Of a stretch of DNA of 36,789 nt, positions 2 to 36,789 are shown piece after piece. Location: positions 1 through 36,789 of the forward strand of contig CABXCC010000014.1 of NCBI GenBank assembly GCA_902510475.1, in the 5' to 3' direction. The DNA comes from an uncultured Bacteroidota bacterium (GTDB taxonomy: Bacteria; Bacteroidota; Bacteroidia; Flavobacteriales; Flavobacteriaceae). The notes under the pieces were generated by a model. It was not told where the DNA came from. It saw only the letters and a program-made list of their open reading frames with translations, and searched no databases. Made by a program: the position numbers and the translations under genes. Position 1 is the stretch's first letter. Every line of letters begins with the position of its first letter.

Positions 2-2914
2 ATCATAAGCTATGTTGGTTTTATAACGCAAGAAATTAAACTTAGTGGGCAAAAGAATTTGAATATAACATTAGAGGAAGATCTCTTCGGTCTTGAGGAG
101 GTAACAGTTGTTGCCTATGGTGAGCAAAAAAAAGAAAGTGTAATTGCTGCAGTTACATCAGTTGACCCCACAGAATTAAGAATTCCAACAAGCAATCTTA
201 CAACTTCACTTGCTGGAAGAGTTGCGGGATTGATCTCCTATCAAAGAAGCGGCGAACCGGGAAGAGATAATGCAGAGTTTTTCATACGAGGTGTAAGCAC
301 CTTCGGCTATGCTAGATCCCCACTAATTTTAATTGATGGAATTGAAACCACCTCAACTGATCTTGCGAGGCTTCAACCGGATGATATTGCAAGTTTTTCA
401 ATAATGAAGGATGCTACTGCAACAGCGCTTTACGGAGCAAGAGGGGCAAATGGTGTTATTATGGTCACCACAAAAGAGGGCAAGCAAGGAAAAGTTAAGC
501 TTAATGTGAGATACGAAAAGGCATACACATCCGCTACCAAGAGGGTTTCCATTGCGGATCCAATTACTTATATGAGGTTACACAATGAAGCATTAGCAAC
601 AAGAGATCCTTTAGGAGGCAGAATATATTCTTTGGAAAAAATCCTAATCTCACAAGATCCAAATAGAAATCAAATGGCTTACCCAACAATAAATTGGTTT
701 GACGAACTTTTAGAAGACTATACATTAAACAGTAGATTTAATTTTAATGTAAGCGGAGGTGGGAAAATAGCCAGGTATTATTTAGCGGCAACTGTTAATA
801 CTGATAATGGAAATTTAAAAATTGAACCTCAAAATAATTTTAATAATAATATTAATTTTAATAGAATATCTCTTAGATCTAATGTGAATATTAATTTAAC
901 ACCAACTACTGAGGTTGCTGTTAGATTTAACGGGAATTTTGATGATTATAATGGACCTTTGAACGGAGGTGAGGAAATATATAAGCAGGCGATGCAAACA
1001 AACCCTGTTTTATACCCAAAATACTATATTCCTGACGCTAATTTTTTTAATTCAACTCATATACTATTTGGTAATTATGGTCAGTTTGGAGATTACCTTA
1101 ATCCTTACGCTAACATGGTTAGGGGTTATAAAGACGAAAGCTATAATAATGTTCTTGCTACGGTTGAAATTAAACAAAATCTTGATTTTATAACCAAAGG
1201 TTTAAAGGCTAGAGCTCTTGTAAATACCTCAAGGTATTCTTTTTATAATCTTGAAAGAAAATACAACCCCTTTTATTACACATTGGCAAACTATGATTTT
1301 CAAAGTGACATATATTCCTTAATCGCTTTAAACCCAAATCAAGGAACCGAATATTTAGAATATAACGAAGGGGCTAAAACAATTTCTAACTCGGTTTACT
1401 TTGAAGGTTCACTAAACTACAACAGAATATTAAACGAAAAACATAATATTTCGGGTATGTTAGTTGGTATAATCCGTGAATTGAAATACGCAAATAACGG
1501 TAATCTGCAAACCTCTTTACCTTACAGAAATATTGGTCTTTCTGGCAGATTTACTTACGCCCTAGACAGCAAATATTTTGCTGAATTTAATTTTGGATTA
1601 AACGGATCTGAAAGGTTTGCTAAAAGTGAAAGGTTTGGATTTTTCCCTTCCTTTGGATTTGGGTGGTATATGTCGAACGAAGACTTCATGAAAAAGTTTG
1701 AAAACGCGATTACAAAACTAAAATTTAAAGGAACTTACGGTTTAGTTGGTAATGATCAAATTGGAAGTGCATCAGACAGATTTTTCTATATTTCTCAGGT
1801 TAATTTAAATGATGGAGGAATGGGATCAATGTTTGGGGAAGAATTTAGCAATTATATAAACGGAGTCAGTATAGACAGGTATGCAAATGATCAAATTACA
1901 TGGGAAAAAGCTAGAATGATGAATATTGGATTTGAGTTAGGTTTATTTGGTATGGTAGATTTTCAAGCTGATTATTTTACAGAATACCGATCTAATATTT
2001 TAATGGACAGAGCACAAACCCCTTCAACTCTAGGATTACAAGCACCTATTAGAGCGAATGTTGGTGAGGCGTCTTCAAAAGGATTTGAGTTTACAATAGA
2101 CTATAAACAAGATTTTCGAAATGATTTTTTTCTCTCTGCTAGAGCTAATTTTTCATATGCAACAAGTAAATATGAAGTGTATGATGAACTAGATTATGTT
2201 TCGGCAGGACTACCTTGGAGATCAAGAATAGGATTAAATCTCTCTCAACCCTATGGATACATAGCCGAAAGATTATTTATTGATGAGGCTGATATCGCAA
2301 ATTCCCCCCTACAAACTTTTGGGGAATACATGCCAGGAGATATCAAATATAAAGACATTAACAATGATGGTATAATTGATATTAATGATGAAGTACCAAT
2401 CGGCTATCCCACCACTCCTGAAATAATTTATGGTTTTGGTGTGTCTAGTAGTTACAAAAACTTTGACCTTTCATTTTTCTTTCAAGGATCTGCAAGATCA
2501 TCATTTTTCATCGATGCCTATAGGACATCCCCTTTTATTGATACGAGTGGAAGCGCCATAGGAAACAATGCATTATTAACAGCATGGGCAAATGATTATT
2601 GGTCAGAAAATGACAGAAACCTTTATGCTGCTTGGCCAAGGTTATCTGATCAATTGATTGATAATAATAATAGAAATAGTACTTGGTGGTTAAGAGATGG
2701 TGGATTTTTAAGATTAAAGTCATTAGAAATTGGGTATTCTATCAACCCCGAAGATATTGAAAGATTTAAACTTGAATCCATGAGAATATATTTAAGTGGT
2801 ACAAATTTATTAACCTTTAGTAAATTTAAAATTTGGGATGTTGAAATGGGTGGAAACGGATTAGGGTACCCAATTCAAAGAGGCATTAATCTTGGACTAA
2901 ACATGAATTTTTAA
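2..2914 (+). CDS. susC: SusC-like TonB-dependent outer-membrane transporter (5' partial)
   Basis: The reading frame is open from base 2, so the gene begins upstream of the window; the first visible residues are the end of a CarboxypepD_reg-like domain, followed by the LEEVTVVAYGEQKK linker typical of SusC/RagA proteins. The plug domain follows (LAGRVAGL, FFIRGVSTFG, LILIDGIE, MKDATATALYGARGANGVI are all visible), then a long beta-barrel ending in the aromatic residue F (GLNMNF). The product forms the active, TonB-energised outer-membrane channel that imports oligosaccharides captured by its SusD partner. The stop is 1 bp before the susD start, and the mannosidase genes downstream suggest alpha-mannose-containing oligosaccharides as cargo. 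The signal peptide and the TonB-contact end lie outside the window. Family assignment is secure; the substrate is inferred from context only. Confidence 0.97.
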   Translation: MISYVGFITQEIKLSGQKNLNITLEEDLFGLEEVTVVAYGEQKKESVIAAVTSVDPTELRIPTSNLTTSLAGRVAGLISYQRSGEPGRDNAEFFIRGVSTFGYARSPLILIDGIETTSTDLARLQPDDIASFSIMKDATATALYGARGANGVIMVTTKEGKQGKVKLNVRYEKAYTSATKRVSIADPITYMRLHNEALATRDPLGGRIYSLEKILISQDPNRNQMAYPTINWFDELLEDYTLNSRFNFNVSGGGKIARYYLAATVNTDNGNLKIEPQNNFNNNINFNRISLRSNVNINLTPTTEVAVRFNGNFDDYNGPLNGGEEIYKQAMQTNPVLYPKYYIPDANFFNSTHILFGNYGQFGDYLNPYANMVRGYKDESYNNVLATVEIKQNLDFITKGLKARALVNTSRYSFYNLERKYNPFYYTLANYDFQSDIYSLIALNPNQGTEYLEYNEGAKTISNSVYFEGSLNYNRILNEKHNISGMLVGIIRELKYANNGNLQTSLPYRNIGLSGRFTYALDSKYFAEFNFGLNGSERFAKSERFGFFPSFGFGWYMSNEDFMKKFENAITKLKFKGTYGLVGNDQIGSASDRFFYISQVNLNDGGMGSMFGEEFSNYINGVSIDRYANDQITWEKARMMNIGFELGLFGMVDFQADYFTEYRSNILMDRAQTPSTLGLQAPIRANVGEASSKGFEFTIDYKQDFRNDFFLSARANFSYATSKYEVYDELDYVSAGLPWRSRIGLNLSQPYGYIAERLFIDEADIANSPLQTFGEYMPGDIKYKDINNDGIIDINDEVPIGYPTTPEIIYGFGVSSSYKNFDLSFFFQGSARSSFFIDAYRTSPFIDTSGSAIGNNALLTAWANDYWSENDRNLYAAWPRLSDQLIDNNNRNSTWWLRDGGFLRLKSLEIGYSINPEDIERFKLESMRIYLSGTNLLTFSKFKIWDVEMGGNGLGYPIQRGINLGLNMNF

Positions 2915-2915
2915 T

Positions 2916-4856
2916 ATGAGATTTAATAAAAACTACATACTAATCATTTTCTTCTTTTTATCAGCATGCGAAAAAGATTTTCTAAATGTTGTCCCTGACA
3001 ATATTGCTACAATTGATCTTGCATTTAATAACAGAGCAACTGCTGAAAGATTTTTATCCACTTGTTACACTTATATTCCAGAGCATGCTCATGCTGAACA
3101 AAACTTTTCATTAATTGCAGGAGATGAAATTTGGTATTACGCTGAAAATGATTTTTACATGAATAATGAAACGAGCATTAGGGTTGCCAAAGGTCTTCAA
3201 AACTCTTCATCACCTTATTTAAATTACTGGGAAGGAGGGAGAGGTGCTCCACATAGTTTATTTGTAGGATTAAGGGATTGTAACATTTTTCTAGAAAATT
3301 TAATTTCTGTCCCAGGACTTGAGGAGGACGAAAGACAAAGGTGGCTAGCTGAAGTTAAAGTGTTAAAAGCATTTTATCATTTTTGGCTTCTTAGAATGTA
3401 TGGACCCATTCCAATTATAAGAGATAATCTATATGTGGGGGCATCCTTAGAAGAAAGTCAGGTCCCAAGAAATTCCGTTGATGAAGTAGTTGATTATATT
3501 GTTGAATTAATTGACGAAGTAATTGCAAGTGAAGCTCTTCCAGGAATTATAAATTATATTTATACCGAACAAGGAAGAATGACATTGCCTGCAGCCAAAG
3601 CAATAAAAGCCAAAGCTCTTGTTCTTGCTGCTAGCCCTCTATTTAATGGTAATCCAGATTTTAGTGAACTAATAAGTCCTGAAGGTAACCCCTTAGTTAG
3701 CCAAACATTCGATCAAAATAAATGGATACTCGCAAAAGACGCACTGCTAGATGCTGTCAATGAAGCACACTCAAACGGCCATTCCCTTTATCAATTTACA
3801 GATCAAGTTCCAATTAATGGAGATATAAATGATGTTGTTAGACAGGAATTAACCCAGAGAGCTGCGATTACTGAGCCCTTCAATCCAGGCATTGTCTGGG
3901 CATTTGAACCAGCATGGACCGGGGATTTACAAATGTGGAGTCAGCCAAGATGGACAGCTGATCACCAAGCTCTATTTGGATACACTAAGAAATCTCATGC
4001 GCCAACTTTAAATATGGTTGAAACATTTTATACTAAAAATGGAGTGCCAATCAACGAAGATATTTCTTGGGATTATGATAACCGATTCAGTGTAACTTCG
4101 ATAAACGAGGATGATGAATATCATGAATATTATGTGGAAAGTAATTACAGCACAGCTAAACTCCACTTAGACAGAGAGCCTCGTTTTTATTCTACAGTTG
4201 GTTTTGACGGAGGTAAATGGTTTTCATTGGAAACTCCAAACATTAATGAAATTCCATTCTTAAATGCTAAAGCTGGTGCCCCATCCGGGAAAAACGGTTT
4301 TGAAATATATTCTATCACAGGTTACTTTGCAAAAAAACTTGTACACTTTGAAAATATAATCTCTTTACAAGGATCAACAATTAAGGGTTATTCATTTCCG
4401 ATAATTAGAATGTCAGATTTGTATTTAAATTATGCTGAAGCCCTAAATGAAACGAAAGATTCTCCTGATGCAGAGGTATACGAATACATACAGGCTGTTA
4501 GATATAATGCAGGATTAGATCAAGAGGGTGATCTCTTAAATACATGGGCTCAATATTCTAATAACCCTGGCAAACCTACTACTAAAGAAGGAATGAGGGA
4601 AATTATTAGACAAGAAAGAATGGTTGAGTTAGCCCTAGAAGGGTATAGATATTGGGATTTAAGGAGGTGGAAATTAGCTGAGGAATATTTTAGTAGACCT
4701 ATAAGAGGGTGGAATATTGTTAGGCCAGATGTTGAAGGGTTTTATGAAGTTGAAAATATATACTACAGAAATTTTTTAAAGAAAGATTATTTGTGGCCAA
4801 TAAGTCAAAACGAAATTTTAAGAAACCCTAATTTAATTCAAAATCCAGGATGGTAG
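2916..4856 (+). CDS. susD: SusD/RagB-family glycan-binding outer-membrane lipoprotein
   Basis: This 646-residue protein has a lipoprotein signal peptide with lipobox L15-S-A-C18, so it should be anchored on the outer face of the outer membrane over the SusC channel. The body is the alpha-helical TPR-like SusD fold: an N-terminal region with AEVKVLKAFYHFWLLRMYG (helix plus the conserved YGPIPI turn), and the hallmark C-terminal block with RQERMVELALEGYRYWDLRR and the ending LWPISQNEILRNPNLIQNPG. SusD proteins hold the glycan and act as a lid on SusC. It follows susC by 1 bp and overlaps the upstream region of the next gene, supporting translational coupling. The ligand is probably an alpha-mannoside, judged only from the GH92 genes in the same operon. 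Confidence 0.97.
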   Translation: MRFNKNYILIIFFFLSACEKDFLNVVPDNIATIDLAFNNRATAERFLSTCYTYIPEHAHAEQNFSLIAGDEIWYYAENDFYMNNETSIRVAKGLQNSSSPYLNYWEGGRGAPHSLFVGLRDCNIFLENLISVPGLEEDERQRWLAEVKVLKAFYHFWLLRMYGPIPIIRDNLYVGASLEESQVPRNSVDEVVDYIVELIDEVIASEALPGIINYIYTEQGRMTLPAAKAIKAKALVLAASPLFNGNPDFSELISPEGNPLVSQTFDQNKWILAKDALLDAVNEAHSNGHSLYQFTDQVPINGDINDVVRQELTQRAAITEPFNPGIVWAFEPAWTGDLQMWSQPRWTADHQALFGYTKKSHAPTLNMVETFYTKNGVPINEDISWDYDNRFSVTSINEDDEYHEYYVESNYSTAKLHLDREPRFYSTVGFDGGKWFSLETPNINEIPFLNAKAGAPSGKNGFEIYSITGYFAKKLVHFENIISLQGSTIKGYSFPIIRMSDLYLNYAEALNETKDSPDAEVYEYIQAVRYNAGLDQEGDLLNTWAQYSNNPGKPTTKEGMREIIRQERMVELALEGYRYWDLRRWKLAEEYFSRPIRGWNIVRPDVEGFYEVENIYYRNFLKKDYLWPISQNEILRNPNLIQNPGW

Positions 4857-4864
4857 ATATTATT

Positions 4865-6073
4865 ATGAACTATAAGAATTTAAAAATTAAAACTTTTTTA
4901 TTAATCATTATCTCAATGATTTCATGTACAGATGATTCCCAACATGGACCATATGGAGCTGATAATGTAGCTCCTGGACCTGTTATAGTTGAGGGTGTTT
5001 TAAACACTGCTGGTGGAGCAGTGATATATTTCACACCTCCAAATGATGAAGATCTTTTATATGTCAAAGCTTCGTTTGAAGACGAAAACTCAACTGCCAG
5101 AGAAGTAATTGTTTCTGCAGTAATTGATTCTTTAAATATTGTAGGATTTGCAGAGGTAGGAACTTACCCTGTTAATCTAATCGCGGTTGATAGAGGCGAA
5201 AACGAATCAACTCCAACAACAATTAGTATATCTCCACTAGAGGCTCCGATTCACGGCATCCTAAATTCTATGATAGGAAATGCAGATTTTGGAGGTATTA
5301 ATATTGCTTATGAAAACCCAACTCGAGCTGAGGTCTCATTAAATATGTCCACGTTAGATAGTGACGGTAATCTCGTATTTAGAGAGTCTTTTTACACAAG
5401 TCAAGCTAACAATTCATATAGTTTTAGAGGTTATGATCCGGTATCTACTGTTTTTGTAATTTATGTTGAAGACAAATGGGGTAACCAGACCGAGACTAGA
5501 AGTTTTGAGGTAGTACCACTAGAAGATGTTTTTTTGGAGAAAGCATATTGGGCAATAGAATCAATGCCGGGTGATGAAAGTTTTAGCGAGTATGGTTTTT
5601 CAGCAAATCAAATATGGGATGGGTACTGGAGTAATCAATGGAACTGTGGTCATACAAATTTTCTTCCTTTGCCTCATCAATTAACTTTAGACCTTGGACA
5701 AACCACAAAATTAAATCGATTTAAGCTTTATCAAAGAGGAGGGTCTGAGCTTTATAAACACGGAAATCCAAAAATATTTAAAATTTATGGAAGAGAAAAT
5801 CTTGATGCATTACCAATTTATGACCCAGATGATCCTGGTGATGGATGGATTGATCTTGGAACATTTGAGTCGTTTAAACCATCCGGGCTTCCCCCAGGCT
5901 CAAATACGGCTGAAGATTACGAATTTCAAGATAACGGTGAAGATTTTGTCTTTGGATATGATGCTAGACAATATGATATAAGATACATAAGACTTGTAAA
6001 CATTGAGTCTTGGAATAATCAAATGGTTACTGTAATTGGAGAATTATCCTTTTGGGGGAGTATAATAAATTAG
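4865..6073 (+). CDS. DUF4959/DUF5126/DUF5000-type surface lipoprotein of the mannosidase locus
   Basis: I choose the ATG at 4865 over the one at 4850 because it places the lipoprotein signal directly at the start (lipobox S-M-I-S-C21) and removes an overlap with susD. The 402-residue protein looks like the three-part lipoprotein often next to susD in GH92 loci: a DUF4959-like Ig-type N-terminal domain (about 40-130), a DUF5126-like middle domain (about 135-225), and a C-terminal DUF5000 discoidin-like beta-sandwich (about 235-400; LPHQLTLDLGQTTKLNRFKL and IYGRENLDAL are visible, ending ELSFWG). It probably contributes to glycan binding at the cell surface (SGBP-like role). The domain names are from recognition of characteristic sequence, not a search. 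Its C-terminal module is homologous to both modules in the next gene. Confidence 0.85.
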   Translation: MNYKNLKIKTFLLIIISMISCTDDSQHGPYGADNVAPGPVIVEGVLNTAGGAVIYFTPPNDEDLLYVKASFEDENSTAREVIVSAVIDSLNIVGFAEVGTYPVNLIAVDRGENESTPTTISISPLEAPIHGILNSMIGNADFGGINIAYENPTRAEVSLNMSTLDSDGNLVFRESFYTSQANNSYSFRGYDPVSTVFVIYVEDKWGNQTETRSFEVVPLEDVFLEKAYWAIESMPGDESFSEYGFSANQIWDGYWSNQWNCGHTNFLPLPHQLTLDLGQTTKLNRFKLYQRGGSELYKHGNPKIFKIYGRENLDALPIYDPDDPGDGWIDLGTFESFKPSGLPPGSNTAEDYEFQDNGEDFVFGYDARQYDIRYIRLVNIESWNNQMVTVIGELSFWGSIIN

Positions 6074-6075
6074 AT

Positions 6076-7839
6076 ATGAAAAGAAGTAATTACATAATTT
6101 ATTTAAAATTAATAACCTTTTTATTTATTATTAATTCTACTTCGTGTGATGATATGAATTCAATTCATGAAGATTATCTTCAGGGCGAACAAGTTTATGC
6201 GGGAAAGCTAGATACACTGGAAGTGCGTCCCGGTTATTACAGGGCTCAATTAGAAGGTCAAACACAATTTTTAGGAAATTCAAATCAAATTATAATCGAA
6301 TATGAGGATCAAGTAAATGTTTATGAAATAAATGAGGAAAATATATATGATGGTATTTACAGTATGATTCTTCCCGATCTAGAAGAAAAATCTTATGAAT
6401 TTACAGTTACAACTCAAGATGAAATTGGAAATCTTTCCGTTTCTCAAGTAGTAGCTGGAAATGTTGTTGGTGATGTTTTTCTTTCTGACCAAGACCCAAG
6501 AGAAATAATAGATTTTACATCCGAGGTTGACGGAACATATGCTAATTTTTTTGGAAATGCTCAATCCGAAAATGTAATCTTTACAACAATTAGTTACGAA
6601 AATGAGTTTGATGAAATTACGGTTGATACTTTATTTTTTGAACAGAATAGAAAAAAACTAATTTTATTTAAGCCTAACGGAAATTTAACAACAACCTCTG
6701 TTGTACAGTCAGGCTTAAATGGTATCGACTCATTAGCTTTAGCTCCCTTAAGTTACAACATGCCAGATGTCCCCTATTCTCAACTTAACAAAAATTATAT
6801 GCGACTTGTGAATATGCCAAGTGATAATCCTGGAAATTTCAACGGAGCTAATCCAAATGAATATTTATTTGACGGGGATACGTCATGGAACGGAGATGAC
6901 ACATTTACTTATAACTCAGGACCAAATAGTTTACCTCATCATTTTACAGTTGATCTAGGGGTTAAGACTAATTTGAGAAGAATTGATTTAAACATGATAG
7001 ATGCTGCTATTGATGCTTCAAGTAATGCTACACACGTTCAAATTTGGGGAAGGGATAATATTCTTTTTGCAGAGACCGATGCAAGTGATGAAAACCTATT
7101 TATCAATGCCGGTTGGGTTTTACTTCACGAAGAAGAAATAACCAATACGTTTGAAGGAATGGCGAGCTTATCAATAGCTCCTTTAAGTTCTTTAAAACGA
7201 TTTATTAGGGTCAGGACAACAGGTTCAGTTGGAAACCAAGAAGTAAAATTTACAGAGTTAACGTTTTACGGAGAGGATACCGAACCTATTAATTTAGATA
7301 AGTCATTACATAGCTTACAAAATATGCCAAGCGATAATCCAGGCACATCTTATGGTGGTAATCCTGAAAACCATTTATTTGATAACAATAATTTTTATTC
7401 TGGTGACAGCTACAGCTACCACTCTGGTGAAAATGCAATACCTGGACATTTTACAATTGATCTTGGAGTGTCAACTTACCTATCAAAAATTGATATTGAT
7501 TTTCGTCCGACTTGGAGTTTTTCAGGTAATACTCCAAATGAGTTAGAGATTTGGGGAAGAGAAGACTTAATTGATGCTGAAACATTGCCTATTTTTGAGA
7601 GTGATGGAAATTCTGTGATTTCAGAACCTGTTTCAGCAGCATCGTTTGAAGATGCAGGTTGGGTCCTAATTCATACAGAATCTTTTGACGGATCAAATAT
7701 CAGCGATATAGAACTTAACTTTAGTAGTGAGCAAAAATCTAGATATGTAAGAGTTAGATATACTAGTACCGTAGGAGAAAGTGCATGCCAATTCATAGAA
7801 ATGGAATTCAACGGATTTGGCTCATTTCCGATCAACTAA
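6076..7839 (+). CDS. DUF4998 lipoprotein with two tandem discoidin-like modules (putative surface glycan-binding protein)
   Basis: The ATG at 6076, 2 bp after the previous stop, gives a lipoprotein signal with lipobox S-T-S-C24; the earlier ATG at 6052 lies inside the previous gene and adds a non-signal tail. Residues about 35-150 resemble DUF4998 (YAGKLDTLEVRPGYYRAQLE). The rest contains two copies of a discoidin/F5-8C-like module, starting about residues 242 and 411. Both carry NMPSDNPG (residues 246 and 416), then GxNPxxxLFD, a GHFTIDLG-type strand, EIWGRE/QIWGRD, and RYVRVR/RFIRVR. The 587-residue protein has no recognisable catalytic domain, so a surface glycan-binding role is inferred. 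The tandem duplication gives it two binding modules. It is in the middle of the susCD-GH92 operon. Confidence 0.85.
   Translation: MKRSNYIIYLKLITFLFIINSTSCDDMNSIHEDYLQGEQVYAGKLDTLEVRPGYYRAQLEGQTQFLGNSNQIIIEYEDQVNVYEINEENIYDGIYSMILPDLEEKSYEFTVTTQDEIGNLSVSQVVAGNVVGDVFLSDQDPREIIDFTSEVDGTYANFFGNAQSENVIFTTISYENEFDEITVDTLFFEQNRKKLILFKPNGNLTTTSVVQSGLNGIDSLALAPLSYNMPDVPYSQLNKNYMRLVNMPSDNPGNFNGANPNEYLFDGDTSWNGDDTFTYNSGPNSLPHHFTVDLGVKTNLRRIDLNMIDAAIDASSNATHVQIWGRDNILFAETDASDENLFINAGWVLLHEEEITNTFEGMASLSIAPLSSLKRFIRVRTTGSVGNQEVKFTELTFYGEDTEPINLDKSLHSLQNMPSDNPGTSYGGNPENHLFDNNNFYSGDSYSYHSGENAIPGHFTIDLGVSTYLSKIDIDFRPTWSFSGNTPNELEIWGREDLIDAETLPIFESDGNSVISEPVSAASFEDAGWVLIHTESFDGSNISDIELNFSSEQKSRYVRVRYTSTVGESACQFIEMEFNGFGSFPIN
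6799..7839 (+). repeat. Internal tandem duplication encoding two discoidin-like modules
   Basis: The two modules start near 6799 and 7306 and are offset by 510 bp. At the DNA level the starts are still close: aatatgccaagtgataatcc at 6811 against aatatgccaagcgataatcc at 7321. Elsewhere only the protein pattern (LFD, DLGV, WGR, IRVR/VRVR) is retained, so the duplication is old except for this conserved strand. Confidence 0.8.
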
Positions 7840-7849
7840 TATTAAAATC

Positions 7850-9994
7850 ATGAAAAAGGAATATAAATTTTTATTTATTTTTTTTCTGATTTTTAAAATC
7901 TCATTCTCTCAAGAATATTCGAAAATTGTTGATACCAAGATTGGATCAACAGGTGAAGGTTTAGCGTGTGGATATAATTTTATAGGAGCAACCTACCCCT
8001 TTGGAATGGTGCAATTTACTCCAACCTTTTTCTCTGCCCATAAAGGTTTTGTTATAACTCAATTAAACGGTGCCGGTTGTTCAAATCTTGGGGATTTCCC
8101 AATACTGCCAATAAGTGGAATTATAGAAAAGTCTCCAAATGATATGAATTCATATAAAAAATTTGAAGAGATTAAAACAACACAAGCAGGATATCTTTCG
8201 TTAAAAATGAATGAAAAGATCGATGTTGATTTGACAGTAACTAAAAGATCTGGAGTCGGTAAATTTAATTTTAAAAACTCTAATTATGGAACGTTAATAA
8301 TCGGAACCGGAATAAATTCCTCTCCCTCTGAAAAAATTAAAGATGCGTTTGTAAAGGTCACATCTCCTAACAGCTGTGAGGGTTTTACTAGAGGTGGCGA
8401 TTTCTGCGGGACTGAAACAGATTATAAAGTTTATTTTGCAGCAGAATTTGATAGGCCATCAGAATTTAACGGGACTTGGAAAGGCAATAAACTTTCAACA
8501 AAAAAAAGCAGTGTAGGGAGAAATAGTGGAGCTTACTTTACTTTTAACACCGATGATATTGGCAAAGTAAGCTACAGGATTGCCATATCATATGTTTCAA
8601 TTGAAAATGCAAAAGAAAATCTAAAAGCCGAAAATAAATCTGTAAAATTTGAGGATTATAAAAAACAAACTTCTCAGGTGTGGGACGAATATCTTTCCAC
8701 AATAAAGATTAAGTCAAATAATGAGGATAGGATAAAACAATTTTATACTCATTTTTATCATTCGTTAATTCATCCAAATATTGTTAGCGATATCAACGGT
8801 GAATATATGGGTGCTGATTTTAAAGTTCACAAACTGGAAAAAGGTCGTGAACACTATAGCTCCTTTAGTGTCTGGGATACATATAGAACTCAAGGACAGC
8901 TTGTAGCAATGTTATTTCCTAAAAAGAGCAGCGATATGATGCAGTCCTTAGTACATTTTGCAGAGGAGGCAGGAGGCTATGGGAGATGGATTTTAGCTAA
9001 TATTGAAACAGGAATTATGCAAGGTGACCCTACCCCTATTTTAATTTCAAATTCTTTTGCTTTTGGGGGTGATGATTTTGATCTTGAAAAAGCATATAAA
9101 TACATGAAGAGAGGGGCTTTGGTTCCAAGGGTTTACTCTCAAAAACAAGAAATTAGACCTTACTTAGAAGAATATATTAAATACGGACAAACATTTGCTT
9201 CAATGTCATTGGAATATGCTTCATCTGATTTTGCAATTTCTCAATTTGCATTAAGCGCTTTATCCAATAGACCTGACTATGAATTCTTTAAAAAGAGATC
9301 ACAGCATTGGAAAAATATTTATAATTCGAAAACCAAATGGCTAAACTCTAGATATCCAAATGGAGTTTGGAAAGACAAGGATCATGATTGGAGAGAAGGG
9401 ACTTATAAAAATTATTTTTGGATGGTACCACACAATCTTAAGGGCTTGATCGATACTATTGGTGGGAAAAAATTTGCAGAACGGAGGCTTGACTCATTAT
9501 TTGTGAAACTTGATGCTGAGTATGAAGAAGACTGGTTTGCTTCTGGAAATGAACCAGATTTTCAAGTTCCATGGATTTATAATTGGATAGATAAACCAGA
9601 AAAAACCGCAAAAACAATCCAACGAATCCTTAATGAAATGTATAGCAGTAGTGAAAATGGCCTACCAGGAAATGATGATTTAGGTACTATGGGTGCTTGG
9701 TATGTTTTTGCTTCAGTCGGACTTTATCCTTTGATTCCTGGTGTTGGCGGATTTTCGTTAAATATTCCTCAGTTTGACTCAATTGACATCAAGCTTCCTG
9801 AAGATAAAATTTTAAAAATTAGAAAAAGAGGGGACGAAAATTATTTCATAAATTCATTAAAATTTAGGGAAAAACCCCACTATTCAACGTGGATAAATTG
9901 GGATATGATAAAAAAAGGAGGAGTATTAGATTATCATATTTCTGACAAAAATAATGATAAATGGTTTTTAAATGCTCCGCCTAGTTATAACTAA
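7850..9994 (+). CDS. GH92 alpha-mannosidase, divergent type (first of three)
   Basis: The ATG at 7850 starts a Sec signal peptide (about 20 residues, SFSQ at the cleavage region) and a 714-residue exported enzyme. GH92 enzymes are calcium-dependent, inverting exo-alpha-mannosidases with an N-terminal beta-sandwich and a C-terminal (alpha/alpha)6 barrel. Visible family blocks are KIGSTGEGLACGYNFIGATY at the N-terminus, W342-D-T-Y-R, REG (E516, expected general acid), SGNEP (565-569), and GNDDLGTMGAWY with D609/D610, one of which should be the general base. Compared with its two neighbours it has S instead of H before GNEP, and REGTYKNYFW instead of EGNAWQY, so it belongs to a different GH92 branch and probably cleaves a different linkage. 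It sits 10 bp from each neighbour in the operon. Exact linkage specificity cannot be read from the sequence. Confidence 0.93.
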   Translation: MKKEYKFLFIFFLIFKISFSQEYSKIVDTKIGSTGEGLACGYNFIGATYPFGMVQFTPTFFSAHKGFVITQLNGAGCSNLGDFPILPISGIIEKSPNDMNSYKKFEEIKTTQAGYLSLKMNEKIDVDLTVTKRSGVGKFNFKNSNYGTLIIGTGINSSPSEKIKDAFVKVTSPNSCEGFTRGGDFCGTETDYKVYFAAEFDRPSEFNGTWKGNKLSTKKSSVGRNSGAYFTFNTDDIGKVSYRIAISYVSIENAKENLKAENKSVKFEDYKKQTSQVWDEYLSTIKIKSNNEDRIKQFYTHFYHSLIHPNIVSDINGEYMGADFKVHKLEKGREHYSSFSVWDTYRTQGQLVAMLFPKKSSDMMQSLVHFAEEAGGYGRWILANIETGIMQGDPTPILISNSFAFGGDDFDLEKAYKYMKRGALVPRVYSQKQEIRPYLEEYIKYGQTFASMSLEYASSDFAISQFALSALSNRPDYEFFKKRSQHWKNIYNSKTKWLNSRYPNGVWKDKDHDWREGTYKNYFWMVPHNLKGLIDTIGGKKFAERRLDSLFVKLDAEYEEDWFASGNEPDFQVPWIYNWIDKPEKTAKTIQRILNEMYSSSENGLPGNDDLGTMGAWYVFASVGLYPLIPGVGGFSLNIPQFDSIDIKLPEDKILKIRKRGDENYFINSLKFREKPHYSTWINWDMIKKGGVLDYHISDKNNDKWFLNAPPSYN

Positions 9995-10004
9995 ATAAGA
10001 AAAA

Positions 10005-12257
10005 ATGCAGAAAAAAATATATGTAATAATCGCTGTTGTATTTATCTCTTGTGCAACATATTTGGGAAAGAGTGATAATTTAATAAATTATGTGGATCCA
10101 TTCATCGGATCTGGTGGTCACGGTCATGTTTTTGTCGGAGCAAATGTGCCATTTGGAGGTGTTCAGGTTGGTCCTACGAATTTTAATAAAGGTTGGGACT
10201 GGTCTTCTTCTTATCATCACACTGACAGTATTGTAAAAGGATTTTGTCATATAAATGTGAGCGGTACAGGAATGTCTGATTTAGGTGAGTTAACGATTAT
10301 GCCAGCTACTGGAAAATTAATGACTGGTGCCGGTACGCAAAATAATCATATGGCAGGATATTCCTCTCTTTACTATAAAGATAAAGAACATGCAAGTGTA
10401 GGCTATTACAAAGTACATTTAGAGAGGTACGATATTGATGTTGAACTAACAGCTACAGAAAGGGTTGGATTGCATAAATATAGATTTCCCGAGTCTAATC
10501 AGTCCAGAGTTATTATTGATCTCGGAGAAGGAAGTGCAGATAGACCCACGGAAACATACTTGAAAAAAATTAATGATACCCTTTTTCAAGGACACAGATT
10601 TTCCTCCGGATGGGCTAGAGACCAAAGAGAATATTTTAGTCTAATAATTTCGAAACCTGTAGATGATTTTATTCTTTACGACAGACACAAAAAATTTAAG
10701 GGTGAAGAAAGAAAAGGAGATTACGTAAAAGGGTTTTTAGAATTTTCAACAAAAAGCAATGAGAATATTATGGTTAAAATGGGAATATCTACAGTAAGCT
10801 CAAAAAATGCGTTAGAAAATATGATGATTGAGCTACCTCACTGGGATTTTTCGATGGTTAAAAAAGACGCTGAGAAAAAATGGGAGAAAGAACTTTCTAA
10901 AATCAAAATTAAAACAGACGACAAAAAGAAAAAGAGAGTTTTTTATACAGCTATGTATCACACGATGATTGCTCCAAACTTATATCATGATTTAAACGGA
11001 GAATACAGAGGAACTGATAAAATAGTTTATAAGGACTCCTCCTTCACTAATTATACATTGTTTTCTCTTTGGGATACATATAGAGCAGCTCACCCAATGT
11101 ACACGATAACCCATCCGGAAAGGGTGAGTGATTTTATTAATTCAATGGTTAAAATATATGAACACCAAGGTAAATTACCCGTTTGGCATCTTCGCGGAAA
11201 TGAAACCAATACCATGCCTGGCTACAGCGGTATCCCGGTTGTTATCGATGCTGCCTTAAAGGGGTTTGAAAATATTGATCTTGAAAAAGTATATGAAGCT
11301 GCAAAAGTAAGTGCAACAGGAGATTTTGAGCCTGGAGTTAAAGATTTGATGGAAAGAGGATATATCCCTGCTGATTTTATGGTAGAATCCATAGCAAGTA
11401 GCATGGAATATGCAATTGGAGATTGGGGTATAGCACAATTGGCAAAAAAACTTGGAAAAACAGAAGACTATGAATATTTCTTAAACAGGTCTAAGGCTTA
11501 CAAACAGTACTTCGATCCCGAAACCAGATTTATGAGAGGTAAACTTTCTGATGGTTCATGGAGAACCCCATTCAATCCTGTCTCAGCTGAACATCGAGTA
11601 AATGATTATTGTGAAGGAAATGCATGGCAATATCTTTGGCTTGTACCTCAAGACCCGGAGGGGTTAATAGAATTATTAGGTGGAGATGAAGCATTCAATA
11701 AAAAATTAGATGAATTGTTTAGCATGTCTTCAGAATTAGGAGAAGAGGCCTCAATGGATATTACCGGTTTAATAGGTCAGTATGCTCACGGTAATGAACC
11801 AAGTCATCATACTACTTACATGTATGCATATTCTGGTGAGCATTATAAAATAGCCGATAAAGTTAGGTACATAAACAATGAATTATATACTGACGAGCCA
11901 GACGGACTTTCCGGTAATGAGGATTGCGGGCAAATGTCTGCATGGTACATATTATCTTCAATGGGATTCTATCCTGTAAATCCATCTAATGGAGCATATG
12001 TATTTGGATCACCTCTTTTTGATGAAGTCTCTTTAAATATTCCAGGTCAAAATAAATTTAAAATTACTGCTAAGAATAACAGTGATGAAAATATTTATAT
12101 TCAGTCCGTTTCACTAAACGGAGAAGATTACAAATATTCTTACATTACTCACAAACAAATTTTAGAAGGTGGTGAATTGAAATTTGTCATGGGTCCAAAT
12201 CCAAATAAAAATTTTGGTACAGAAAAAAAATACAGACCTAAATCAATAGTTTATTAA
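10005..12257 (+). CDS. GH92 alpha-mannosidase, lipoprotein (second of three)
   Basis: This 750-residue protein begins with a lipoprotein signal (lipobox F-I-S-C16), so it is probably membrane anchored. It is the most canonical GH92 of the three: YVDPFIGSGGHGHVFVGANV at the N-terminus, W356-D-T-Y-R, CEGNAWQY with E537 as the expected catalytic acid, HGNEPSHHTTYMY (H595, E598) around the calcium and +1 subsite region, and GNEDCGQMSAWY with D640 as a likely base. GH92 enzymes release mannose from the non-reducing end of alpha-mannosides. In the operon it would act on oligosaccharides bound or imported by the SusCD pair. The start is 10 bp after the previous stop and its stop is 2 bp before the next ATG. 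Confidence 0.95.
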   Translation: MQKKIYVIIAVVFISCATYLGKSDNLINYVDPFIGSGGHGHVFVGANVPFGGVQVGPTNFNKGWDWSSSYHHTDSIVKGFCHINVSGTGMSDLGELTIMPATGKLMTGAGTQNNHMAGYSSLYYKDKEHASVGYYKVHLERYDIDVELTATERVGLHKYRFPESNQSRVIIDLGEGSADRPTETYLKKINDTLFQGHRFSSGWARDQREYFSLIISKPVDDFILYDRHKKFKGEERKGDYVKGFLEFSTKSNENIMVKMGISTVSSKNALENMMIELPHWDFSMVKKDAEKKWEKELSKIKIKTDDKKKKRVFYTAMYHTMIAPNLYHDLNGEYRGTDKIVYKDSSFTNYTLFSLWDTYRAAHPMYTITHPERVSDFINSMVKIYEHQGKLPVWHLRGNETNTMPGYSGIPVVIDAALKGFENIDLEKVYEAAKVSATGDFEPGVKDLMERGYIPADFMVESIASSMEYAIGDWGIAQLAKKLGKTEDYEYFLNRSKAYKQYFDPETRFMRGKLSDGSWRTPFNPVSAEHRVNDYCEGNAWQYLWLVPQDPEGLIELLGGDEAFNKKLDELFSMSSELGEEASMDITGLIGQYAHGNEPSHHTTYMYAYSGEHYKIADKVRYINNELYTDEPDGLSGNEDCGQMSAWYILSSMGFYPVNPSNGAYVFGSPLFDEVSLNIPGQNKFKITAKNNSDENIYIQSVSLNGEDYKYSYITHKQILEGGELKFVMGPNPNKNFGTEKKYRPKSIVY

Positions 12258-12259
12258 AA

Positions 12260-14599
12260 ATGAAAAAAGCTGTCATTCTATATTCTTTATTTTTTATTTT
12301 TTTTATCACAAAAACAACAGTAGCAAATGAAGATTATGTCAAATATGTAAATCCGTTAATAGGAACAGATACTTCATTTGAACTTTCAAACGGCAACACG
12401 TATCCTGCAATAGCAAGACCATGGGGAATGAATTTTTGGACACCCCAAACCGGAAAAATGGGTGATGGATGGGGGTACACTTATAAAGCAGAGCATATAG
12501 TTGGATTTAAGCAGACCCATCAACCAAGTCCATGGATAAATGATTATGCTGCCTTTTCTTTAATGCCTTCCATTGGAAAATTATCGGTTCTTGAAGATCA
12601 AAGGAAAACAAAATTTAATCATGATAATGAAATTGTTGAACCACATTATTATTCTGTTTTTTTAGATGACATAAATACAAAAGTTGAATTTACTGTAACA
12701 GAGAGATCATCCTTTTTTAGATTTCATTTTCCAAGAACTGCAGATGCTAATATTATAATTGATGCATTTTTTAAAAATTCTGAAATCAAAGTAATTCCTA
12801 ACGGGAATAAAATAATGGGCATTGCTAAAAATAATTCGGGTGGAGTTCCTGATAACTTTGGAAACTATTTTGTGATCGAATTTGATCGGCCTTTTACAAA
12901 ATCTGGCGTATGGGATGGAAAAGGAAATATTATTTCAAAAAATCATTTAAAAGGGAAGCATGTGGGTGCATATGTTTCTTTTAATACTGAAAAAAAAGAA
13001 GCATCAACCTATCGTTCGATTAAAACGCAGGAGTTTTATAATATAATTGAAGTAAAGGTATCATCTTCATTTATAAGCCATGAGCAAGCGTGGATAAACC
13101 TAAAAAGGGAGTTGCCTGAAGATAAAAACTTCATTGAAATTCTGGCTGAGGGTCGTAAATCATGGAATAATGAATTATCAAAAATAAAGGTTGAAACAGA
13201 AAACACGACTTATGGAATTTCAAACAAAACTAAATTCTATTCGAGCTTCTACAGAACCATATTATTTCCCAGACAATTCCACGAATATAACGAAGATGGT
13301 AAACAAATTCATTACAGCCCATATAATGGTAAAGTCTTGGATGGACCTTTATACACAGATAATGGTTTTTGGGATACATTTAGAGCTGTTTTTCCTTTTT
13401 ATACAATATTATATCCAGAAAAACTTGGGGAAATTATGCAAGGTATTATGGTAAACCCTTATAAAGAAAGTGGATGGTTACCCGAATGGTCAAGTCCAGG
13501 ACATCGCGATTGTATGATTGGGTCTAACTCTGCCTCTATAATTGCTGAAGCCTATATCAAGGGTATAAAAAATTTTGATATTAATACTGCTTATAATGGC
13601 ATTATAAATAGTTCAGAAAATGAAGGTCCATTAAGCTCCGTTGGAAGAAAAGGGGCTTTTGAGTACAATAAATTGGGTTATATTCCTTTTGATTCATCGA
13701 TTAACGAAAATGTAGCAAGGACATTAGAATATGCTTACAATGATTTTTCTATATGGAAACTTGCAGTGGAATTAGATCGCCCAAAAGATGAAATCAGATT
13801 ATTTAAAGAAAGAGCTTATAATTATAAAAATGTATTTGATTCATCCACAAATTTTATGAGAGGAAAATTAAAAAACGGAAATTTCCAATCTCCATTTGTA
13901 CCAGATGCATGGGGTGGAGCATTTACTGAAGGAAGTTCATGGCATTATACATGGTCTGTTCTACATGACCCACAAGGTCTTATAAATTTAATGGGTGGAA
14001 AAAAAGATTTTGTAAAAAAACTTGATGAAGTCTTCACATCTGAACCTACGTCTGATTTTTCTTATTATGGATTTAAAATTCATGAAATATTAGAAATGGA
14101 ACTGCTTAATATGGGGCAATATGCACACGGAAATCAACCAATTCAGCACGCAATTTATTTTTATAATTATGCTCAAGAGCCGTGGAAAACTCAAGAAAAA
14201 ATTAGATATGTATTAGATAATTTATACGGAGCTGAACCTGACGGATATTGTGGTGATGAGGATAATGGTCAAACTTCAGCTTGGTTTTTATTTTCCTCAT
14301 TAGGATTCTATCCAGTAGCACCAGTTACAATGGAATATATTATTGGAAGTCCGCTATTTGAATATGTAGAAATTTCATTGCCTAACGGGGAAAAATTTAT
14401 TATTGATTCGTCAGAAAATAGTATTGAAAATATATATGTTAATGGTATAAAACTAAATGAAAAATATTATGATAAGAATTGGATACACCATGAAGATTTG
14501 ATAAGCGGAGGTAAGCTGATTTTTGATATGAAAAAGACACCCAATTTTAATTGGGGTTCATCAAAAAGCAGCATCCCCTATTCTATGTCAAATGAGTAA
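12260..14599 (+). CDS. GH92 alpha-mannosidase, exported (third of three)
   Basis: The 779-residue protein has a cleavable signal peptide (cleavage expected after about A22) and the GH92 blocks YVNPLIGTDTSFELSNGNTY, W371-D-T-F-R, TEGSSWHYTW (E557, expected general acid), HGNQPIQH (H623, Q626) and GDEDNGQTSAWF (D666-E-D668). The HGNQP form, with Gln where the second enzyme has Glu, and the SFELSNGNTYPA N-terminal block mark a third GH92 subgroup. It is the last gene of the polysaccharide locus; after its stop the strand changes to a tRNA gene. It likely works with its two neighbours to strip different mannose linkages from one branched glycan, an inference from gene order and motif differences. 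Confidence 0.94.
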   Translation: MKKAVILYSLFFIFFITKTTVANEDYVKYVNPLIGTDTSFELSNGNTYPAIARPWGMNFWTPQTGKMGDGWGYTYKAEHIVGFKQTHQPSPWINDYAAFSLMPSIGKLSVLEDQRKTKFNHDNEIVEPHYYSVFLDDINTKVEFTVTERSSFFRFHFPRTADANIIIDAFFKNSEIKVIPNGNKIMGIAKNNSGGVPDNFGNYFVIEFDRPFTKSGVWDGKGNIISKNHLKGKHVGAYVSFNTEKKEASTYRSIKTQEFYNIIEVKVSSSFISHEQAWINLKRELPEDKNFIEILAEGRKSWNNELSKIKVETENTTYGISNKTKFYSSFYRTILFPRQFHEYNEDGKQIHYSPYNGKVLDGPLYTDNGFWDTFRAVFPFYTILYPEKLGEIMQGIMVNPYKESGWLPEWSSPGHRDCMIGSNSASIIAEAYIKGIKNFDINTAYNGIINSSENEGPLSSVGRKGAFEYNKLGYIPFDSSINENVARTLEYAYNDFSIWKLAVELDRPKDEIRLFKERAYNYKNVFDSSTNFMRGKLKNGNFQSPFVPDAWGGAFTEGSSWHYTWSVLHDPQGLINLMGGKKDFVKKLDEVFTSEPTSDFSYYGFKIHEILEMELLNMGQYAHGNQPIQHAIYFYNYAQEPWKTQEKIRYVLDNLYGAEPDGYCGDEDNGQTSAWFLFSSLGFYPVAPVTMEYIIGSPLFEYVEISLPNGEKFIIDSSENSIENIYVNGIKLNEKYYDKNWIHHEDLISGGKLIFDMKKTPNFNWGSSKSSIPYSMSNE

Positions 14600-14604
14600 T
14601 TTTG

Positions 14605-14679
14605 TCGGGATGACAGGATTTGAACCTGCGACCCCACGGCCCCCAGCCGTGTGCGCTAACCGGACTGCGCCACATCCCG
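14605..14679 (-). tRNA. tRNA-Pro(GGG)
   Basis: Read on the minus strand, the acceptor stem is CGGGATG at 14679-14673 paired with CATCCCG at 14612-14606, with discriminator A at 14605. The anticodon stem CACGG/CCGTG (14651-14647 and 14639-14635) encloses the seven-base loop CTGGGGG, giving anticodon GGG (14644-14642), which reads proline CCC/CCU. The T arm contains GGTTCAAATCC. The bases after the discriminator are CAA rather than CCA, so CCA must be added post-transcriptionally. It lies between the GH92 operon and the cupin gene with no integrase nearby. Confidence 0.95.
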
Positions 14680-34414: not shown

Positions 34415-35854
34415 ATGAAAAACTTTACTGACATAATCATTATTGGGGCAGGCTTATCTGGAATAGGAGCAGCTTGTCATTTAGAAAGAAAAAATCCCGA
34501 AAAATCCTATCAAATTTTTGAGTCCAGAAAAGAAATTGGAGGAACTTGGAGTTTATTTAAATATCCGGGTATTCGATCTGACTCAGACATGTACACCTTT
34601 GGATTTTCATTTAAAACTTGGGATAATCCAAAATCATTTGCAGATGCGCCTAGTATTTTAAGTTATCTAAAGGAAGCTGCAGAGGAGTATAATGTTAAAG
34701 AAAAAATTAAATTTCAAACTCAGGTTTTAGAAGTTAGTTTTAATGCTGAAAATAAAATCTGGTCTATTACTACTTTAAATAATAATGTAAAAGCTATACA
34801 CCAATCTAATTTTTTATTTTCCTGCACAGGATATTATAATTACGATAAAGGGTATACCCCAAATTTTAAGGGGTTAAAAGATTTTCAAGGAAAAATAATT
34901 CACCCCCAACACTGGCCTGAAAAATTAAATTATGAAAACAAAAAAGTAATTGTAATAGGTAGTGGGGCAACTGCTGTTACTATAATTCCTAAAATGGCAG
35001 AAAAAACATCTGAAATTACGATGCTTCAGAGATCGCCAACATATGTTGGCGCATTTCCAAATAAAGATAAGACAGCAAAGTTTTTGAAAGCATATCTGCC
35101 TAAAAGCTTAGCACATAAATTCATTAGATTTAAAAATATTTTTGTTCAAATTTTATTTTTTCAAGCATGTAAGATATGGCCAAAAAAAATAAAAAAATGG
35201 CTCGTTAATGGTGCGCAAAGACAATTAGGCAAATTTCCTGCAAAACCACATTTTGAGCCAAAATATAATCCTTGGGATCAAAGATTTTGTGTAGCTCCTG
35301 ACGGAGATCTTTTTAGGTCGATAAGAAGCGGTAAAGCCAAAGTAATTACAAACGAAATTGACTGCATTACAAAAAAAGGAATCAGATTAAAAAACGGTAC
35401 TGATCTTAATGCTGATATCATTATTACAGCTACTGGGTTGGAGCTCTTGGCTTTTGGGGGGGCTAAAATCAAGGTCAATGACAAAGATTATAATCCATCA
35501 GAGGCAGTTACCTACAAGGGATTGATGTTAAGTGGTCTACCAAATTGTATATTTTTTGCTGGTTATACAAATGCGTCATGGACCTTGAAAAGTGATTTAA
35601 CAAGTGAATACTCAAGCAGACTATTTAAATATATGAGTAAAAATAATTTTAAATCATTTGTTCCAATTATTAAAAATAAAAAGATGATTATTTCTCCCCT
35701 CTTAAACTTAAATTCAAGTTATATACATAGATCATCCCATTTATTTCCAAAGCAAGGGTCAAAACTACCGTGGAAATTATATCAAAATTATTTTTTAGAT
35801 TTTATAACACTAAGGCTAAATAAAATTAATGGTGATTCTATAAAATTTAAATAA
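34415..35854 (+). CDS. Flavin-containing monooxygenase of the Baeyer-Villiger type
   Basis: The 479-residue protein has two dinucleotide-binding motifs, GAGLSG (11-16) for FAD and GSGATA (182-187) for NADPH, and between them the Baeyer-Villiger fingerprint F157-x-G-xxx-H163-xxx-W167 (FQGKIIHPQHWP). GGTWSLFKYPGIRSDSDM after the FAD loop is also typical of this group. Such enzymes insert one oxygen next to a carbonyl or on S or N using NADPH and O2. The substrate is unknown. The next gene begins 23 bp downstream on the same strand, so the two may share a transcript although no metabolic link is evident. Confidence 0.92.
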   Translation: MKNFTDIIIIGAGLSGIGAACHLERKNPEKSYQIFESRKEIGGTWSLFKYPGIRSDSDMYTFGFSFKTWDNPKSFADAPSILSYLKEAAEEYNVKEKIKFQTQVLEVSFNAENKIWSITTLNNNVKAIHQSNFLFSCTGYYNYDKGYTPNFKGLKDFQGKIIHPQHWPEKLNYENKKVIVIGSGATAVTIIPKMAEKTSEITMLQRSPTYVGAFPNKDKTAKFLKAYLPKSLAHKFIRFKNIFVQILFFQACKIWPKKIKKWLVNGAQRQLGKFPAKPHFEPKYNPWDQRFCVAPDGDLFRSIRSGKAKVITNEIDCITKKGIRLKNGTDLNADIIITATGLELLAFGGAKIKVNDKDYNPSEAVTYKGLMLSGLPNCIFFAGYTNASWTLKSDLTSEYSSRLFKYMSKNNFKSFVPIIKNKKMIISPLLNLNSSYIHRSSHLFPKQGSKLPWKLYQNYFLDFITLRLNKINGDSIKFK

Positions 35855-35877
35855 ATATATTTATTAATATTATGATT

Positions 35878-36789
35878 ATGAAAAATTTATATAAGCTACT
35901 ATTTTGTCTTTTATTTCTCACCTGTAGTTCAGGGGATGATAATGATGAAAATCAAATTATCGATCCTACAGTTAGTATCTCAGCAAACATAAGCTCACTA
36001 ACTTTTGAAAATACAATGGTGTCTCAGGCTTCCGTTTCAAAATTAATAATTATAAATGCTGAAAATGCAACTTCTCAAATAACCGTTACTGCACCAGATG
36101 GATATGAGGTTTCGGTTAATAATTCTTTTTCAAGCAGTATTTCTTTTCAGCCTGAAATTTCAAATGAAGTATATGTGCGCTTTGCTCCAAGTGAACCTGT
36201 AAATTATTATTCTACACTCCAGATTTCTTCTGAAGAACTTGACAATGTTATAAACGTTAATTTATTTGGAATCGGAAGTCCTTTAAAATTTACTTATCAG
36301 GCTTTTGAAAACCAACCTCTTGGATTTGGTGGCGGATTTAATCAATCTGCAGTTCAAATATTTGATCTACACAATGACCTTTCTGATATCAGCGAAATTA
36401 AAATGTTCTTACAAATAGACTGCCCAAGCTCAGGATGTGATGACTGGGACCGATTTGCAAACATTAAAGTTAAAGATCAATCGACCGGAAACTGGTACGA
36501 AATAGGCAGGTATATAACTCCCTATTGGGTTGGCACTCAACAATTAGATAGAGGGTTAGAATTTGATGTTACTGATTTTAAATCTTTTTTAACCGGTACA
36601 ACAGAATTAATGATTTATATTGAAAATTGGACTGCTAAAGCAGATATAGTTTCTGTAGAATTTGATTACGTTTCTGGAATACCTGACTATGCATATTATG
36701 TTGTTTCTGAAGTTTTTAATCTTCATTCAAATTCGATAAGCGGAATTCCATACGGGGTTGATCATAATATAGATTTAGATAAATCTATT
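35878..36789 (+). CDS. Peptide-N-glycosidase F (PNGase F) homologue, lipoprotein (3' partial)
   Basis: The frame is open to the last base, so the 3' end lies outside. The ATG at 35878 (preferred to 35872) gives a lipoprotein signal (L-F-L-T-C16). Residues about 30-132 form an Ig-like beta domain (ITVTAPDGYEVSV, VYVRFAP). From about 135 the sequence follows mature PNGase F of Elizabethkingia closely: IKMFLQIDCPSSGCDDWDRF, NWYEIGRYITPYWVGT, RGLEFDVTDFKSFL, ELMIYIENW, GIPDY and GIPYG. The expected catalytic D191 (WDR; D60 of mature PNGase F) and E249 (IENW; E118) are present at the same 58-residue spacing, as is the disulfide pair C182/C187. PNGase F cleaves the Asn-GlcNAc amide bond, releasing whole N-glycans. 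The third active-site residue (E206 in PNGase F) is beyond the window. Confidence 0.92.
   Translation, partial: MKNLYKLLFCLLFLTCSSGDDNDENQIIDPTVSISANISSLTFENTMVSQASVSKLIIINAENATSQITVTAPDGYEVSVNNSFSSSISFQPEISNEVYVRFAPSEPVNYYSTLQISSEELDNVINVNLFGIGSPLKFTYQAFENQPLGFGGGFNQSAVQIFDLHNDLSDISEIKMFLQIDCPSSGCDDWDRFANIKVKDQSTGNWYEIGRYITPYWVGTQQLDRGLEFDVTDFKSFLTGTTELMIYIENWTAKADIVSVEFDYVSGIPDYAYYVVSEVFNLHSNSISGIPYGVDHNIDLDKSI

Follow-up and report, generated by a model that had tools for sequence, protein, structure and literature searches.

PNGase F, which removes sugar chains from proteins, is widely used as a laboratory tool, and to our knowledge little context is available for its natural role. The stretch of DNA analysed here (36,789 nucleotides, referred to as the window) ends within a gene whose product resembles this enzyme, in an uncultured, small-genome, probably marine flavobacterium. 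The locus raises the questions of whether the gene product is a genuine PNGase F, where in the cell it would act, and what use would be made of the glycan and the protein that it separates.

A type I PNGase F at the contig edge

The visible part of the gene comprises the following features:

35878..36789, + strand: predicted lipoprotein, PNGase F of type I; first 304 codons, gene cut at the contig end
35878..35925, + strand: MKNLYKLLFCLLFLT, a short signal peptide of the lipoprotein type; Cys16 is the candidate lipidated residue, and SSGDDND comes next
35971..36276, + strand: Ig-like (ASH/Cep192/PapD-like) beta-sandwich, residues about 32-133
36298..36789, + strand: N-terminal catalytic domain of PNGase F plus the beginning of its C-terminal domain (residues 141-304); includes D191 (=D60), E249 (=E118), W190 (=W59) and C182/C187 (=C51/C56)

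The open reading frame contains no stop from 35878 (or from an in-frame ATG at 35872) up to the end of the window, and the start at 35878 is favoured because two relatives (L003 and L004) have only the later Met. The window spans the whole of contig C14 (assembly 1.23 Mb, 65% complete), so that the gene breaks off where the assembled contig does. When the same assembly was searched for the missing third with a limit of E 1e-40, which a short fragment could escape, the one match covered residues 1-304.

At the level of sequence comparison, the match of the visible 304 residues to PNGase F is far beyond chance (phmmer against 1PNF, E 1.3e-54). From residue 141 onwards the protein aligns without gaps with residues 10-173 of PNGase F at 51.8% identity, D191 and E249 correspond to D60 and E118, with the same spacing of 58, and the Pfam family N-glycanase_N passes its cut-off (25.7 versus 22.4 bits); no NCBIfam model matched the protein. 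The block alignment from which the original prediction had concluded homology to PNGase F is thus correct. A viral or plasmid origin of the gene was also considered and rejected, as 0 relatives were present in viral contigs and plasmids yielded one match, at 27% identity.

The remainder of the protein can be followed in relatives, of which the closest (L002 = L021, isolate AG-390-J14; AG- isolate names presumably denote open-ocean single-cell genomes) shares 97% identity with the window protein across its 304 residues. Its protein has 445 amino acids and matches residues 10-313 of 1PNF with an E value of 5e-122 and 55.8% identity over 303 residues, and both N-glycanase_N and N-glycanase_C are over the Pfam cut-off. 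A stop or frameshift just past the window, which had been named as a danger to the original prediction, is absent from this relative, which has a normal stop and no frameshift; this holds for relatives, the window gene itself being cut. The complete two-domain catalytic part, for which the original prediction had suggested a check, was found in the relative, both in its Pfam domains and in a structure model that matches 1PGS.

This AlphaFold2 model, for which 15 aligned sequences served as input, has a mean pLDDT of 72, with blocks of 83-95 in the Ig-like domain (residues 31-130). Values drop under 50 in several loops of the catalytic part, among them 323-340 and 358-392, and these loops contain part of the active site. 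In a Foldseek search 1PGS was the top match (E 1e-32, TM 0.84 by target length), followed by type II PNGases; HYDIN-type PapD-like domains were also among the matches.

Residue conservation was counted in 53 homologues, after removal of duplicates (L021-L026, L049, L055, L059), two fragments (L018, L038) and the window fragment (L001); a further genome from the close-relative search (G695) has no locus and stands outside the homologue set. D60 and E206 are present in 53/53. The third catalytic Glu, which the original prediction could not see, is thus invariant in the relatives, including the 97% identical one, where it is E337, but the window gene itself ends before it. Position 118 is Glu in 52/53 and Asp in 1/53 homologues, and each of the six PNGase F cysteines, as well as W59, W120, W191, W207, R248 and W251, is found in all 53. 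The position of R61 is occupied by Arg in 32/53 and by Val in 21/53.

The identity of the protein is deduced from homology, and this last position makes the site partly variable; a diverged relative with another amidase or a binding function, rather than a true PNGase, is nevertheless very improbable, because the window protein retains the Arg (R192) and its visible part has 52% identity with PNGase F, and because the relatives keep all other catalytic and aromatic site residues tested, save the one Asp at E118. Val beside the catalytic D60 occurs in L017, L053, L054, L057, L060-L063 and others, and may, from its pattern in the alignment, mark a specificity subgroup.

According to passages of PMC9522356, Glu118 bars core alpha-1,3-fucose in type I PNGases and is replaced by Gly in type II, and enzymes with Glu or Asp at this position are predicted or have been shown to reject core alpha-1,3-fucose. 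The Glu at position 118 of the window enzyme thus predicts type I specificity. Membership of type II was rejected, as position 118 is Glu and the N-terminal domain is Ig-like, and we assign the gene product to the type I PNGase F enzymes with high confidence.

Candidate lipid anchor and Ig-like domain

The lipobox named in the original prediction could be confirmed as a candidate: Cys16 is invariant across 22 aligned sequences, and a loose ad hoc rule, applied without a signal-peptide predictor, finds a candidate lipoprotein Cys in 54/54 sequences, the window fragment included. At least two acidic residues follow at +2 to +8 after the Cys in 46/54. By eye, these acidic tails resemble the lipoprotein export signals SDDFE and SDDDD, which are given for Flavobacterium johnsoniae and Bacteroides fragilis in passages of PMC5080379, the SSGDDND of the window being a loose match.

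The looseness of this match would also suit a periplasm-facing lipoprotein that trims glycopeptides or glycans after their import. This arrangement is improbable, in view of the wide spread of the acidic tail and of the Ig-type spacer and protein-sized substrate, which would fit the outside of the cell better; in addition, the available part of PMC10154615 places the action of N-glycan-removing bacterial enzymes outside the cell. Display of the enzyme on the cell surface is the preferred reading.

The N-terminal stretch matches Cep192/ASH-type Ig models, the best being Pfam Cep192_D4 with an E value of 1e-6, which is under the cut-off. Together with the beta-sandwich in the relative's model, this bears out the predicted Ig-like domain. 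Scanned with a profile derived from 13 such domains, 30 of the 53 homologues have one Ig-like domain, 16 have two, 1 has three and 6 have none; L030, from the cultured species Psychroserpens mesophilus, is one of those with two. The anchor and the Ig-like domain had been viewed as an unusual addition to PNGase F; this view did not survive the comparison, since 47/53 homologues carry one to three Ig-like domains and 53/53 a candidate lipoprotein Cys. As far as can be judged from such profiles and motifs, a lipoprotein with an Ig domain is the usual form among close type I relatives.

In a midpoint-rooted tree of 52 homologues (L028 was omitted) and PNGase F, the true root of which is uncertain and for which the homologues were gathered with Ig-bearing queries, PNGase F groups with L069, an Ig-free lipoprotein, inside Ig-bearing branches. 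Given this nesting, calling the Ig domain an addition to PNGase F probably inverts the true direction. That the Ig-free forms constitute one clade was rejected with the same tree and homologues (AU test, p 1.8e-23). A literature search, mainly of openly accessible papers, retrieved no report of an Ig-bearing, anchored or marine PNGase, and on the strength of this search the Ig-tethered lipoprotein architecture of PNGase F is undescribed.

Distribution of PNGase F-like proteins

PNGases had been called rare in bacteria in the original prediction, which the genome counts do not support. The C-terminal domain of PNGase F is present in 202/395 sampled Bacteroidia genomes, and close type I relatives (E <1e-40) occur in 31/397 genomes of the family, the window's own included, and in 17/21 genomes of the window's genus (assemblies of 1.0-1.5 Mb, 56-86% complete). 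Ten PNGase F-like proteins of Bacteroidia were inspected by eye: eight (L041-L048) are type II-like, with Gly within a FIGNY-like stretch and about 560-590 residues per frame; the other two, L039 and L040, are group 1-like, with IDTW. Most frames of the weaker Bacteroidia matches, among the matches listed, are long and divergent. Divergent long PNGase F-like proteins (frames of about 640-1200 amino acids), for example L019 and L020, are encoded in many Bacteroidia, and L020 ends in what was judged by eye to be a T9SS-type tail.

Genes beside the PNGase gene

The gene directly before the PNGase gene is:

34415..35854, + strand: FMO-like flavoprotein, 23 bp upstream of the PNGase gene

An FMO-like gene adjoins the PNGase gene in the loci of the genus that were compared, even where the order is swapped (L026, genome G011), and in G001, which has no PNGase match, the FMO-like gene lies on the opposite strand. 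A contiguous polysaccharide utilization locus (PUL) around the PNGase gene was considered and rejected: besides genes that match no Pfam family, the neighbours are FMO-like, DUF952, DoxX-type and CIA30 genes and one for a Kazal-bearing lipoprotein. Two loci outside the genus were annotated; the neighbours are recG, patatin and glutamate synthase at L030, lactate dehydrogenase and a T9SS-tail protein at L031, and homologues of these neighbours are found at several other loci. No protease was recognised among the PNGase neighbours scanned, several of which have no Pfam match.

The Kazal-bearing neighbour (32410-33756) resembles a lipoprotein and has its Kazal-type protease-inhibitor domain near residues 316-357. 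The counterparts in six sibling genomes align over residues 1-319 and about 350-448, the Kazal part being absent, and separate small Kazal frames (about 70-96 amino acids, some with an internal stop) occur in the genus. As read from these alignments, the Kazal domain has been gained or lost within one genus.

A SusC/SusD-GH92 locus on the same contig

A locus at the other end of the contig, which the original prediction did not mention, gives the most specific hint of how the enzyme may be used:

2..2914, + strand: SusC/RagA TonB-dependent transporter (TIGR04056 E 2.5e-274, Plug), 5' end cut at the contig start
2916..4856, + strand: SusD/RagB-type glycan-binding lipoprotein (PF07980 E 3e-56, PF14322)
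4850..6073, + strand: surface glycan-binding-type protein (DUF4959/DUF5126/DUF5000), putative role from position
6052..7839, + strand: surface glycan-binding-type protein (DUF4998, F5/8C and DUF5000-like stretches), putative role from position
7817..9994, + strand: GH92 alpha-mannosidase a, closest solved structure 6F8Z (E 2e-90)
10005..12257, + strand: GH92 alpha-mannosidase b, closest solved structure 6F8Z (E 1.5e-180)
12260..14599, + strand: GH92 alpha-mannosidase c, closest solved structure 2WVX/2WW1 (E 1e-271)
14604..14679, - strand: tRNA-Pro(GGG), directly past the GH92 locus (4 bp)

The structure 2WW1 is BT3990, as stated in a passage of PMC9522356. No sulfatase, GH18, GH85, GH130 or GH20 was found among the genes from SusC to GH92c (2-14599).

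The GH92 locus lies beside tRNA-Pro(GGG) in the window and in five other GH92-bearing regions scanned (L084, L088, L089, L097, L099). In genome G005 (L091), the gene 66 bp past the tRNA-Pro is the gene at 28.0-28.4 kb of contig C3 of G001, and the genes further beyond follow the G001 order; about 20.5 kb of G001 C3 (28.4-49.0 kb, divergent genes and the GH92 locus) are absent at this site. The occurrence of the locus at tRNA-Pro in six regions and the empty site in G005 indicate that it is a variable island. Three genes on the other strand precede SusC in G001 and encode a T9SS tail, an S74 domain and a SASA-type carbohydrate esterase domain; the SASA-type frame has 1111 amino acids, and the region (L084:3-3304 and L102:8476-13304) lies inside the island.

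Does the PNGase go with the GH92 locus?

Between the PNGase locus and the GH92 locus lie 21 kb with menaquinone and other genes. The conserved linkage was rejected as proof of coupling: the 21 kb form a syntenic block with the menaquinone genes, so that its conservation inside a single genus says little, and the two are unassociated in their occurrence, GH92 being found in 16/31 PNGase-positive versus 188/366 PNGase-negative genomes of the family (Fisher p = 1.0). Within the genus (n=21), 11 genomes have both, 6 have PNGase without GH92 and 4 have GH92 without PNGase; these genomes are incomplete (56-86%). In G001 the GH92 locus and the syntenic region, FMO gene included, are present, yet there is no PNGase match; G005 has the PNGase and an empty island site, and in G015 the two are on separate contigs. 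These patterns indicate that the PNGase and the GH92 locus can exist apart.

Such independence would be expected if the PNGase served the use of protein as a nitrogen source, that is, if N-glycans were stripped to clear the way for proteases and were lost or used by others, the substrate of the GH92 enzymes being independent. The 6/17 PNGase-positive genomes of the genus without GH92, among them G005 with its empty tRNA-Pro site, the missing association over 397 family genomes and the neighbours at L030 and L031 are all consistent with this explanation. It leaves the GH92 loci of the genus unexplained, however, as GH18 (1/21) and GH85 (0/21) are scarcely available for glycan release, and the neighbours scanned include no recognised protease. 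On balance, use for protein alone is rather unlikely.

The same scarcity of GH18 and GH85 suggests that the PNGase may be the N-glycan-releasing step in the genus. The genomes contain GH130 in 0/21, GH20 in 9/21 and SusD-type genes in 21/21 cases; the first two counts imply that a feeding model that combines the PNGase with the GH92 locus does not account for how the chitobiose core is processed.

A possible role in N-glycoprotein feeding

The explanation that we consider probable combines an anchored type I PNGase F on the cell surface with use of the released high-mannose N-glycans by the SusC/SusD-GH92 system. The short, Cys-terminated signal peptide would anchor the PNGase lipoprotein in the outer membrane, and the acidic linker and one ASH-type Ig domain would act as a spacer that keeps the two-domain catalytic unit off the membrane, the unit itself most likely being displayed on the cell surface. 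There it would hydrolyse the GlcNAc-Asn amide in eukaryotic N-glycoproteins without core alpha-1,3-fucose, for example algal ones of the high-mannose type, whereby the glycan would be freed and Asp left in the protein. A SusC/SusD system such as that on the same contig would be likely to import the freed glycan, and the three GH92 alpha-mannosidases would trim it, while the bared protein would become accessible to proteases. Confidence in this joint PNGase-GH92 feeding model is moderate.

It should be noted that 68/69 N-glycans reported for the diatom P. tricornutum in passages of PMC8678454 are high-mannose; the share is biased, because the glycans were released with PNGase F, which according to that paper would miss fucose- or xylose-modified cores.

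A wider proposal is that, in small-genome planktonic flavobacteria, a surface-tethered type I PNGase replaces an endo-GlcNAcase and frees Man-rich GlcNAc2 glycans, that the tRNA-Pro island with SusC/SusD and triple GH92 consumes these glycans in part of the genus, and that the Ig-tethered lipoprotein is the ancestral type I form. Taken as a whole, this proposal is tentative, and the balance tilts somewhat against all of its parts holding together. Anchored PNGase F relatives are present in 17/21 genomes of a genus with assemblies of 1.0-1.5 Mb, and GH18 or GH85 in 1/21. If the reading is true, N-glycoproteins of plankton would be a regular food of these flavobacteria, and the lipoprotein forms would be a fresh source of PNGases.

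Comparison with known systems

The closest characterized counterpart is PNGase F (EMTypeI) of Elizabethkingia meningoseptica (1PGS/1PNF/3PMS), with which the full-length relatives of the window protein share both catalytic domains, D60/E206/E118, three cysteine pairs and the active-site Trp and Arg residues. Classical PNGase F is secreted and has neither a lipoprotein Cys nor an Ig domain. The type II PNGases PNGF-II (4R4Z) and 7ZGN, a PNGase for plant and insect N-glycans, have the catalytic fold in common with the type I form (Foldseek E 2.5e-10 to 8.6e-9). According to parts of PMC9522356, type II enzymes also have an extra N-terminal domain, which is bowl-like (NBL), whereas that of the window protein is Ig-like, and they accept core alpha-1,3-fucose with Gly at 118, where the window protein has Glu. 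The group 1 PNGases of Bacteroides, 3KS7 (B. fragilis) and 4QHB (B. vulgatus), again share the fold, at 14-16% identity in the Foldseek alignments; they have Asp at 118, a small beta insert and no N-terminal domain, and BF0811 of B. fragilis, a member of this group, behaved like PNGase F (both from passages of PMC9522356).

Of the components of a high-mannose N-glycan PUL, the window locus has SusC/SusD and three GH92, while GH18/GH85 are absent from it and the PNGase is 21 kb away. The high-mannose system of B. thetaiotaomicron likewise comprises three GH92, and GH92c of the window is very close to BT3990, which we take to belong to the BT3987 operon, presumably with a SusC/SusD pair of its own. 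That operon contains a GH18, whereas the window locus has none and the would-be releasing PNGase lies outside it. As described in the available part of PMC10154615, the GH18 enzyme BT3987 and three GH92 are encoded in one operon and trim high-mannose N-glycans sequentially.

The GH92-rich PULs of North Sea Bacteroidetes (PMC6794258 and PMC6298971, both in part) contain several GH92, as does the window locus. Those without sulfatases are described with GH130, GH20 and GH18 in passages of PMC6794258, whereas the window locus carries none of these. The term "PNGase" has 0 occurrences in the available text of the two papers, and N-glycoproteins had already been proposed as the target of GH92-rich marine PULs in a passage of PMC6298971. 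The PNGase described here adds a candidate releasing enzyme to this idea.
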